IMG/VR virus record: IMGVR_UViG_3300030118_002835
Location: 4,087 to 31,126 of that record
DNA from: a virus
DNA length: 27,040 nt
Reading direction: 5' to 3' (one strand)
Below the pieces are notes generated by a model, which was given only the letters and a program-made list of their open reading frames with translations, made no database searches and had not been told where the DNA came from. This document shows positions 4,149 to 25,278 of this stretch, one piece after another. Within the stretch, counting starts at the first letter, position 1, and the number at the start of each line of letters is the position of its first letter. Position numbers and translations under genes: made by a program.

Positions 4149-4835
4149 ATGATTTTATACAAGCAGGCACCGATTGGTGATATAGATGAAAAAGCAGGCA
4201 TAGTCAAGGGCTATGGTTCTGTGTTTGGCAATAGAGATAGTGATGATGATGTGATTGAAAGAGGGGCATATGCCAAAACAATTAAAGAGAACGGTAAGAG
4301 AGTAAAATATATTTATCAGCACGACATTACAAAACCGATTGGTAAAATGTCTGAATTATATGAAGATGAAAAGGGATTAGCTTTTACTGCAGAAGTACCT
4401 AAAACCACACTTGGAAAAGATGTGATTGAATTAATTAAAGCAGGTGTTATAACAGAAAATAGTGTTGGCATTATGCCAATCGTTAAAGACTATAACGAGG
4501 AAGAAAAAACAAGATATATAAAAGAAGTAAAATTATATGAAATATCTGCTGTAACAATAGCTGCAAATGACCAAGCTATGATTAATGATGTCAAGAGCGA
4601 GGAAAAAAGACAGTTAGATATTAACAAGAAATTTGATGCAATAAATAAATTATTAAGAGATGGTGACATTTCTGATGATTTAGGATATGCCATTGAATAC
4701 CAGCTTCAATGTTTGAAAACTGATATGAGTATCACAAAGCCGGCTGTAGAAGTCACTTTGCCGAAAAAAGAGAGTACAAGCGATGAGGTTTTTAAATTTT
4801 TTTTCAACCGTTTAAATAATTTTAAAAATGAGTAG
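4149..4835 (+). CDS. HK97-family prohead protease (S78/U35)
   Basis: This protease matures the prohead by cleaving the delta domain from the major capsid protein, and itself. The N-terminal half carries the family pattern: GIVKGYGSVFGNRDSDDDVI, GAYAKTI, a catalytic His in YIYQHD (H58), and a catalytic Ser in ITENSVGI (S105). The length of 228 residues is typical for the family. The C-terminal third is charged and helical, as expected for a self-removed scaffold-like tail. The gene overlaps the start of the capsid gene by 8 bp, suggesting coupled translation of protease and substrate. A TAnnTTTG element lies upstream. Confidence 0.93.
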   Translation: MILYKQAPIGDIDEKAGIVKGYGSVFGNRDSDDDVIERGAYAKTIKENGKRVKYIYQHDITKPIGKMSELYEDEKGLAFTAEVPKTTLGKDVIELIKAGVITENSVGIMPIVKDYNEEEKTRYIKEVKLYEISAVTIAANDQAMINDVKSEEKRQLDINKKFDAINKLLRDGDISDDLGYAIEYQLQCLKTDMSITKPAVEVTLPKKESTSDEVFKFFFNRLNNFKNE

Positions 4836-15996: not shown

Positions 15997-15998
15997 TT

Positions 15999-16028
15999 TT
16001 GTTATTCCAATATCTTTATTTAGATTTG
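15999..16028 (+). promoter_or_regulatory. Full-consensus Bacteroidota promoter, possibly leaderless
   Basis: TTG (15999-16001), a spacer of exactly 19 bp, then TAGATTTG (16021-16028) form a complete -33/-7 pair. Only 4 bp separate the -7 element from the ATG at 16033, so transcription would begin at or next to the start codon. Confidence 0.6.
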
Positions 16029-16032
16029 GTTT

Positions 16033-16407
16033 ATGAATAAGCAAAGAGGTTATTACTCTTTAAAGATTGGGGGTAAGAACAGAACCATGCACTTTAGCAT
16101 GAATTTTTGGGCATCATTAACAGAAGTTTTAGATGTTGGATTACAAGATTTAGAAAAAGTTTTTTCAGATAAGTCACAGTTATCGTCTATAAGGGCGATT
16201 ATATACTGTGGCTTATTAGCTTATGACCAAGAGGAGGGCAATGAAATAGATTACAATATCTATAAAGTTGGTTCTTGGTTAGATGATTTAAAGCAAGATG
16301 AGTTTCAAAATGTTATGCAGGCTATGACAGAAACAAAGATATTAGGAAACGAAATCAATGCAGGTATAGAAAGGACTCAAAAAAAAACTCAACAGCAAAG
16401 CAAGTAA
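16033..16407 (+). CDS. Tail assembly chaperone, short form (gpG-like)
   Basis: This 124-residue protein is the zero-frame product. The start (MNKQRGYYSLKIGGKNRTMH, then FSMNFWASLTEVLDVGLQDL) is typical of gpG-type chaperones, which coat the tape measure while the tube polymerises. The IYCGLLAYDQEEGNEIDYNI segment supports this. Near the C-terminus it runs through nine A residues (16379-16387) and stops at 16407. It sits between the tail tube and tape measure genes, as in lambda and most siphoviruses. A -1 shift on the A tract gives the long form described separately. Confidence 0.85.
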   Translation: MNKQRGYYSLKIGGKNRTMHFSMNFWASLTEVLDVGLQDLEKVFSDKSQLSSIRAIIYCGLLAYDQEEGNEIDYNIYKVGSWLDDLKQDEFQNVMQAMTETKILGNEINAGIERTQKKTQQQSK

Positions 16408-22413: not shown

Positions 22414-22564
22414 AATATTTGATTAAATTTTTTATTTTATTACGAACAGAAAGCCACAAGTCAGCTTCAAACTCACTTTGTGACCATTCTGTGTATCTCT
22501 TACAAGTAACATCAATTTCTTTTAGTTCCTGTAATTGATTAATAAAAGGTTTATACTTTTTCAC
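22397..22564 (-). CDS. 55-residue protein with GTG start
   Basis: This short ORF reads MKKYKPFINQLQELKEIDVT and continues CKRYTEWSQSEFEADLWLSV, then RNKIKNLIKYYEADK. It begins with GTG at 22564 just after an in-frame stop, so no longer start exists. The composition is that of a compact helical protein. It fills the 137-bp gap between its neighbours, overlapping the upstream gene by 14 bp and the downstream one by up to 17 bp. No family is recognised. Confidence 0.55.
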   Translation of the reverse strand: MKKYKPFINQLQELKEIDVTCKRYTEWSQSEFEADLWLSVRNKIKNLIKYYEADK

Positions 22565-22838
22565 TTAGTTGTTCAAGTTTCTCTTGAGAATCTAAGATGT
22601 TATCGAAAAAAAACTCATCTCCGGTCTCATGGTCTGTAATCAAGTACTCAACCTCTTGACCGAAGCAGGAAACAATCTGTATATCGTTTTCTAATGAAAT
22701 GTAAACATAACCAGACGAATCATTATATCCTATTTGAAATATTTCCTCATTAGGAAAATATTTGTTATAGGAATCCAAAACAAGACTCAAGCTGTGTTTA
22801 TCGCTCGAACCCATCTTATCAAAATTAAAAATATTCAT
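22551..22838 (-). CDS. Small acidic hypothetical protein
   Basis: This encodes 95 residues with an acidic, strand-rich composition (EIFQIGYNDSSGYVYISLEN, then the QEVEYLITDHETGDEFFFDN stretch) and a helical end (SQEKLEQLSEKV). The negative charge and small size are reminiscent of acidic phage proteins that mimic DNA or bind host factors, but no specific family is visible. It follows the structured non-coding gap, so its mRNA leader would contain that structure. Confidence 0.55.
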   Translation of the reverse strand: MNIFNFDKMGSSDKHSLSLVLDSYNKYFPNEEIFQIGYNDSSGYVYISLENDIQIVSCFGQEVEYLITDHETGDEFFFDNILDSQEKLEQLSEKV

Positions 22839-22863
22839 ATCTAAAGTTTTAAAGTTTTAAAAA

Positions 22864-22955
22864 GATTGAGAGTCTAGCTTAGTCCTCTGCAACTGAATAA
22901 TTTAATATTCTTACTGAGAGGAATTAAATGCCCGCATCTAAACCAACCCTCAATC
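22864..22955 (-). ncRNA. Candidate 92-nt structured RNA or mRNA leader element
   Basis: The 173-bp gap 22839-23011 is the longest non-coding stretch inside the leftward operon. On the minus strand its ends pair perfectly (GATTGAG at 22955-22949 with CTCAATC at 22870-22864), followed by five T residues. Nested inside are GTTTAG with CTAAGC (22943-22938 / 22882-22877, one G-U), CCTCT with AGAGG (22921-22917 / 22888-22884) and GAATA with TATTC (22910-22906 / 22899-22895). An ATTTAAT segment at 22929-22923 is also complementary to ATTAAAT at 22906-22900, allowing a pseudoknot with the innermost hairpin. It is not a canonical tRNA. I recognise no known riboswitch. It could be an independent RNA, a leader element for the 95-residue gene, or an attenuator. 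Confidence 0.45.
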
Positions 22956-23011
22956 ATATAGCTAATATCGAAAGTTTTTTTATAAATTCAAAATATTTTT
23001 AAAAAATATTT

Positions 23012-23362
23012 TTAAAAAGTATTGATGATTTTGTTGTCAATTAACATCTCTAGAATCTCTAGCCAATCGTTCTTTTCCATTATTACGTATTCTCTGCCAC
23101 CTTTACGCTTATGATATATTAATTTGTATTGAGGTTTGTTAGGCCTCATCTCATCTAAAATTTTATGATAACTAGGATTGTTGCTAGTGGCTTTACATTG
23201 TATTGCAAAGGGGTCCGTAGCAACTAAATCAATTTTTGCATTATCAATCATCTTAGATGCGTACCTAGATGTCTCACAATATTTCCAACCTAACTTACGA
23301 AATTCTAGTCGTATTTGTCTTTCGTAATCGTGGCCACGCTTTCTTGACGTTCTCCCTGACAT
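23012..23362 (-). CDS. Hjc-like Holliday junction resolvase / PD-(D/E)XK endonuclease
   Basis: This 116-residue protein has the archaeal-Hjc-like pattern often found in phages: a basic start (SGRTSRKRGHDYERQIRLEF, with E14), TSRYASKMIDNAKIDL (D45), and FAIQCKATSN, where Q55-x-K57 stands in place of E-x-K. These are the metal-binding and catalytic positions of the fold. It would cut branched DNA arising in recombination or replication. It overlaps a small hydrophobic ORF at its start and ends before the structured gap. Confidence 0.8.
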   Translation of the reverse strand: MSGRTSRKRGHDYERQIRLEFRKLGWKYCETSRYASKMIDNAKIDLVATDPFAIQCKATSNNPSYHKILDEMRPNKPQYKLIYHKRKGGREYVIMEKNDWLEILEMLIDNKIINTF

Positions 23363-23730: not shown

Positions 23731-24056
23731 TTTTTTAATTTAGTAAAATCTTCATCATTCAAAAGCATATGAATAGCTTCATCATCACTCAAACTATGTG
23801 TTTCGTAACCACAATCTGGGTTTTCACACTTCCAACTGAATGATTGCAAAAATTCTATCACATTGCCACCTTTACCTGATGCAAAACATTTAAAAATTTG
23901 TTTAGATGGTGACACAAAAAATGATGGTGTACTTTCTTTTACAAATGGACTTAATCCTTTATAACTACTTCCTGATTTTTGTAATTTCACAAAATTTTTT
24001 ACAACATCTACAATGTTTATTTTTTTCAATACTTGTCTTTTTTTTCTTCTATTCAT
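23727..24056 (-). CDS. DnaG-type primase zinc-domain-like protein with degenerate zinc site
   Basis: This 109-residue protein matches the N-terminal CHC2 domain of DnaG primases in sequence order: NIVDVVKNFVKLQKSGSSYK, GLSPFVKESTPSFFVSPSKQ and IFKCFASGKGGNVIEFLQ. That domain contacts template DNA and chooses primer sites. Three of its four usual zinc ligands are changed: S36 for Cys, V39 for His and S60 for Cys, with only C57 kept. A CENPDC segment with C77 and C82, plus H87, follows where DnaG normally has a helix. No catalytic TOPRIM domain is attached; that part may be encoded elsewhere, or the protein may work with the host primase. The helicase encoded rightward from 26363 is a plausible partner. 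Confidence 0.75.
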   Translation of the reverse strand: MNRRKKRQVLKKINIVDVVKNFVKLQKSGSSYKGLSPFVKESTPSFFVSPSKQIFKCFASGKGGNVIEFLQSFSWKCENPDCGYETHSLSDDEAIHMLLNDEDFTKLKK

Positions 24057-25055: not shown

Positions 25056-25185
25056 TTTGCTTTAATGATTGATTGATGTAATAGAAAATTCCATATAACA
25101 TTGGTGAACTATATAAGATAGTCCATAAATTAGGGTGCCATGTTTCACCGCAAAATCCTAAACTATGTTTTACTATTTCTATCAT
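25036..25185 (-). CDS. 49-residue small protein, aromatic and weakly hydrophobic
   Basis: This short ORF reads MIEIVKHSLGFCGETWHPNL and continues WTILYSSPMLYGIFYYINQS before a basic tail. The aromatic middle may be a membrane-associated helix. Its end overlaps the exonuclease start by 20 bp, and its ATG lies 4 bp beyond the T run of the terminator at 25190-25241, so it would be translated only from transcripts that read through that terminator or start within it. The function is unknown. Confidence 0.5.
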   Translation of the reverse strand: MIEIVKHSLGFCGETWHPNLWTILYSSPMLYGIFYYINQSLKQNEKNKR

Positions 25186-25189
25186 AAAC

Positions 25190-25241
25190 AAAAAAGTGCC
25201 GGTTTTCAAGGTGCTTCCAAACTACCTATTGACACCGGCAC
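25190..25241 (-). terminator. Strong hairpin terminator or attenuator inside the leftward operon
   Basis: On the minus strand GTGCCGGT (25241-25234) pairs perfectly with ACCGGCAC (25203-25196), followed by TTTTTTG. The 30-base interior contains a second pairing (CAA, bulge, GGT with ACCTTG). It separates the HTH/SSB-like genes from the exonuclease and primase-like genes. Confidence 0.8.
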
Positions 25242-25278
25242 ATAAATTAACTAACTTAATTATGAAATGTCTGACGAC

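Follow-up and report, generated by a model that had tools for sequence, protein, structure and literature searches.

The 173-bp gap at 22839-23011, between two minus-strand genes of this phage, holds a putative Bacteroidota sigma-A-type promoter and, immediately behind its predicted start, a 92-nt predicted RNA hairpin, and in a close relative the same unit stands ahead of an unrelated gene. We tentatively read the hairpin as the structured 5′ leader of transcripts from an internal promoter, independent of the gene that follows and acting through protection of the 5′ end and perhaps through attenuation, a reading to which we give somewhat less than an even chance. The DNA analysed here ("the window"; 27,040 nucleotides, covering positions 4087-31126 in a virus record of 31,126 bases) encodes the structural proteins of a tailed phage on its plus strand, whereas the minus strand carries small genes of early type. 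The nearest phage relatives of the resolvase encoded upstream of the gap are all Flavobacterium phages, which together with the promoter type points to a presumed flavobacterial-type host group. The original prediction had called this the only large gap in the early operon, free of any convincing ORF. Neither description held: the interval 25056-25278 is larger (223 bp, holding only a TTG-start 57-aa ORF), and a 27-codon ATG ORF runs across the hairpin (Table 1).

Table 1 Features in and around the resolvase-distal gap (all on the minus strand of the window)
Feature	Position	Strand	Remarks
RusA-like Holliday-junction resolvase family gene, upstream of gap	23012..23362	-	PHROG 244, E 2e-12; 46 related loci
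-33 element TTTG, Bacteroidota sigma-A promoter	22989..22992	-	Own-genome pattern match; aligned with 8 more distant relatives; consensus PMC6847099
-7 element GATATTAG	22962..22969	-	Consensus TAnnTTTG, -12 to -5; T-12 and T-6 deviate
Predicted +1, the A of ATG	22957	-	G of -7 element is -5, then CTAT, then ATG
Predicted 92-nt structured RNA	22864..22955	-	MFE -30.3, z -4.55; top fold of window; copies in L003 and L004
Outer 18-bp stem, 5′ arm	22938..22955	-	Pairs with 22864-22882
Outer stem, 3′ arm	22864..22882	-	One bulged base; ends CTCAATC
One-sided 15-nt loop AUGCGGGCAUUUAAU	22923..22937	-	22923-22929 is one strand of proposed pseudoknot
Inner stem P3	22914-22922 with 22883-22892	-	Inner region 22883..22922
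Apical hairpin P4	22895-22910	-	GAAUA-UUAAAU-UAUUC
T5 run 3′ of outer stem	22859..22863	-	
Leaderless-type 27-codon ORF MIEGWFRCGHLIPLSKNIKLFSCRGLS	22874..22957	-	Overlaps hairpin; codon score like that of open wrong frames; 3/4 variable sites synonymous
Acidic 95-aa protein gene, downstream of gap	22551..22838	-	pI 4.05; other gene there in L004

The predicted fold

The nested minus-strand fold from 22955 to 22864 was confirmed: GATTGAG and CTCAATC pair without mismatch in the 7-bp outer stem, and T5 comes directly after it. The fold proved better than shuffled controls. A 95-nt stretch folded at -30.3 kcal/mol, compared with -17.3 ± 2.9 kcal/mol in dinucleotide shuffles (z -4.55; 0 of 200 as good), and the z-score of the entire 173-nt gap was only -2.2. 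When 5,390 sliding 95-nt windows from both strands were compared after correction for GC, the hairpin ranked first (-4.2). It also counts in favour of the predicted hairpin that this top-ranking fold lies within the gap and on the strand that is transcribed. However, the runner-up is a coding stretch (16131+, GC-corrected -3.97), and several relatives reach z-scores of -4.3 to -5.0 within 300 nt behind the resolvase gene (best of 13 windows), so the fold is notable, or moderately unusual, rather than extreme: the hairpin is real as a predicted fold, and only modestly exceptional. The overlapping ORF does not explain the fold, because the hairpin also surpassed synonymous recodings that keep the 27-codon ORF (z -3.8; 0 of 3,000).

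The original prediction had recognized no tRNA, hammerhead or common riboswitch here. Rfam 15 covariance models gave no match in the window at the gathering threshold (the best sub-threshold score was RydC, 19.8 bits against 48 needed, E 0.12), and ARAGORN detected no tRNA or tmRNA. An integron attC-type site was dropped on inspection by eye, as its box sequences do not fit. For the proposed pseudoknot, the 7-base complementarity AUUUAAU/AUUAAAU exists, and is identical in all copies, but it consists entirely of A-U pairs and is not supported energetically: the pseudoknot duplex, taken free, is worth -1.1 kcal/mol, against -1.5 kcal/mol for the P4 hairpin that would have to be opened (37 °C), and -3.5 against -4.4 kcal/mol at 15 °C. 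The AUUUAAU strand moreover abuts P3, giving it poor reach.

Other RNA-like stretches were seen in relatives. Behind a 61-aa ORF that follows the same promoter, a tRNA-like mini RNA, AAGCTAA-AATGGTTGCA-GGGTGG-TTCAATT-CCACCC-TTAGCTT, occurs at L015:2249-2292, near L016 position 4101 and near L047 position 464. It has an acceptor-like stem, a short D-loop-like stretch with GG and a perfect T-arm, has no anticodon arm, and was called by neither ARAGORN nor Rfam; it may be what is left of a tRNA-derived attachment site, or else a T-loop RNA. In L022, about 480 bases behind the resolvase (4343-4820) contain no ORF of at least 45 codons, show G-richer RNA-like stretches and matched nothing in Rfam, even with the cut-off relaxed to E 1.

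A candidate promoter in a conserved position would place the hairpin at the 5′ end

At its start the gap reads TTTG-N19-GATATTAG, which resembles the promoters of mapped Flavobacterium starts, whose -7 element is marked by T-12, A-11, T-8, T-7, T-6 and G-5 (PMC6847099; PMC9723704). All letters of the -33 element match, as do four of the six conserved -7 letters; the latter element reads G-12 A T A T T A-6 G-5, and its A-6 deviation is shared with L009 and L013, with fuller matches at the same position in relatives. The A/T-rich stretch directly 3′ of the resolvase gene aligns across the window, L003, L004 and eight others, most of which read TTTG-N19-TAnnTT(T/A)G. Since its position and register behind the resolvase gene are conserved in relatives, the promoter probably predates the hairpin RNA. 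The predicted +1 lies two bases ahead of the outer stem, and the hairpin would therefore be the 5′ end of the transcript. The structured RNA that the original prediction placed in the gap is backed by fold statistics and by a Bacteroidota-type promoter of its own, and belongs to no Rfam family. An A/T-only inverted repeat, AAATATTTTTAAAAA, adjoins the promoter (22990-23015) and appears as a second self-match in the phage's own genome.

The pattern TTTG-N20-A-NN-TTWG-N4-ATG matches exactly twice in the phage's own genome, in the hairpin gap and ahead of a 124-aa gene at 16033; the reversed-pattern control matched nowhere in that genome. Genes of 55, 145 and 69 codons start at the same N4 spacing after this promoter in L009, L013 and L024, respectively. 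Sigma-A-type promoters with an ATG 4-5 bases past the -7 element lie at 15998-16035 of the window and at L009:887, L013:2834, L024:848 and L004:1743. Leaderless gene starts thus seem, from sequence, to recur in these phages, though they are rare in the presumed hosts. In F. psychrophilum, 5.5% of mRNAs are leaderless (PMC9723704), and in B. thetaiotaomicron 5′ UTRs under 10 nt account for 3.7% (PMC7366714).

Three close copies ahead of exchangeable genes

Among the 46 loci with related resolvases, the element is present only in L003 and L004; at the same place, relatives further away show either a short A/T-rich leader or a leaderless start, with no counterpart of the element. Homologue searches used related resolvases, the core 17-mer, a gapped pattern, the downstream protein, a primase-like protein, degenerate codons of the 27-aa ORF and the 3′ half, and also covered phages and plasmids; a covariance model of the hairpin was run over all loci. 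Beyond L003 and L004, no further copy turned up among 2.9 million viral contigs or in species genomes. Four additional core 17-mer matches, located in unrelated sequence, and two gapped-pattern matches were taken as chance, as was L051 (covariance-model E 0.032), which had been picked by the same 17-mer; at an exact 19-mer in one actinobacterial MAG the covariance model had no match. The element is an orphan candidate of a known kind with three copies, not a new category.

In L004, the same promoter, hairpin and spacer to the ATG precede an unrelated 137-codon gene that replaces the acidic protein, and similarity to the window resumes behind the replaced gene. Promoter, hairpin and 25-nt spacer are common to the window, L003 and L004. 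The leader is therefore not tied to the acidic protein, which contradicts its proposed role as a leader switch for that gene. In these 96-98% identical phages single genes are swapped or missing, with breakpoints at gene borders; relative to L004, the acidic gene (22551-22838) is replaced and the region of a DnaG-type zinc-finger gene (23739-24047) is not aligned.

Of the 92 hairpin positions, 3 differ between the window and L003 and 3 between the window and L004 (four variable positions in all), a divergence close to that of the neighbouring DNA (about 3%; 97% identity). The original prediction had named a lack of compensatory changes as counting against the RNA; no pair has changed on both sides, but three sequences at about 97% identity, with four variable columns, are uninformative in this respect. 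Each of the four substitutions either improves the fold or shifts its energy by no more than 1 kcal/mol (about 0.12 by chance), the L004 copy folding at -32.9. Three of the four variable sites are synonymous in the 27-codon ORF, including TAG/TAA (P 0.07). Because 59% of random changes also leave the fold intact, and given the P value for synonymy, these substitutions favour neither the RNA nor the ORF. Three near-identical copies cannot prove a function from sequence.

A 5′ leader and competing readings

If a Bacteroidota sigma-A-type promoter works inside the gap, as an internal promoter of the phage, the hairpin would form the first ~95 nt of its RNA. The long 5′-terminal stem, with two unpaired bases ahead of it, would shield the transcript's 5′ end from decay and bury the AUG at +1, and translation of the next gene would begin from the open A-rich spacer behind the hairpin; the T5 after the stem may also end part of the transcripts (attenuation). 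That stem-loops at the 5′ end can stabilize bacterial mRNAs is established (PMC7509114), and flavobacteria are reported to have structured 5′ leaders as well as leader-peptide attenuators (PMC9723704). For this phage, what the analysis shows is the sequence, the predicted fold, the homology of the promoter and the placement of the unit before different genes; the transcription start, stabilization and attenuation are what we infer. For a leader speak the fold statistics, the position and register of the promoter, the proximity of +1 to the stem, the occurrence of the unit before different genes and the fold-keeping substitutions. Against it stand a -7 element that is off at two of six conserved positions, the absence of compensatory change, a divergence like that of the surroundings and the lack of a counterpart in more distant relatives. 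A competing reading is a relic or chance hairpin: DNA gained behind the promoter in cassette exchange, such as a decayed leaderless gene start, with an unselected fold. The restriction to three close copies conserved no better than their surroundings, the similar z-scores elsewhere in relatives and the frequent cassette turnover at exactly this site all favour such an origin, which we consider unlikely; against it speak the location of the window's best fold, within the gap and on the strand that is transcribed, and the substitutions, which so far keep or improve it.

A phage regulatory RNA in the sense of the original prediction is possible, whereas a decoy or inhibitor RNA is unsupported. 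A standalone small RNA of about 97 nt with host or phage targets would account for the promoter at the 5′ end, the independence from the downstream gene and a 3′ end with intrinsic-terminator-like traits, namely the 7-bp stem base and T5. Yet the T-run is just five bases long, followed by AAAA, and no canonical terminator was called, in a scan that allowed loops of 3-8 only and so excluded the shape of this hairpin. The open 15-nt loop has no other complementary site in the phage genome, and in relatives the promoter serves the genes that follow; we hold a standalone RNA to be improbable. Similarly little weight falls on a tiny leaderless gene, with the 27-codon ORF as its product or as a leader peptide controlling read-through of the hairpin. 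Promoter register puts its AUG at the predicted +1, with the TT(T/A)G-N4-ATG spacing of the genes in L009, L013, L024 and at window 15998, and its variable sites are mostly synonymous. However, that start lies at the base of a strong stem, and the ORF looks non-coding: its codon score of -6.5 is typical of open wrong frames (-7.3 ± 10.3) and lies below 99.8% of segments from real genes, which score 11.2 ± 6.6, and no relative was found in phages, Pfam or the degenerate-codon scan beyond L003 and L004. The ORF may encode a real small protein or a leader peptide, or it may be what remains of a leaderless gene. Very improbable, in our estimate, is a new family of phage regulatory RNA with a leaderless-type promoter, in which translation from the +1 AUG would open the hairpin and control read-through as a portable, gene-independent attenuator.

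If functional, the preferred 5′ leader would be a portable one, placed before a slot whose gene can be exchanged, in marine flavobacterial-type phages, a group with hardly any mapping of regulatory RNA or leaderless translation. A more general point is that in these phages the predicted +1 of sigma-A promoters repeatedly coincides with an ATG.

Comparison with known systems

The candidate promoter resembles the Bacteroidota sigma-A type (-33 TTTG / -7 TAnnTTTG) in its motifs, their spacing and a position conserved in relatives, and departs from the consensus in two of the six conserved -7 letters. With phage-encoded small RNAs the hairpin shares a short structured RNA between early genes and a promoter-like element of its own; in contrast to them, a discrete RNA species is hypothetical here and no target was found. 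Flavobacterial leader-peptide attenuators show the same succession, in which the promoter is followed by a short ORF beginning at the 5′ end, then by a hairpin that has a T-run, and last by the structural gene, whereas the peptide here has no single-amino-acid run, interchangeable phage cassettes follow and codon usage looks non-coding. Compared with the stabilizing 5′ stem-loops of the ompA 5′ UTR type (also recA of Acinetobacter and vacA of Helicobacter), the hairpin has no sequence relation, a much longer stem, a 15-nt one-sided loop and a 5′ position predicted from promoter register; like them, it would be a stem-loop at or near the 5′ end, ahead of the translation start of the coding gene.
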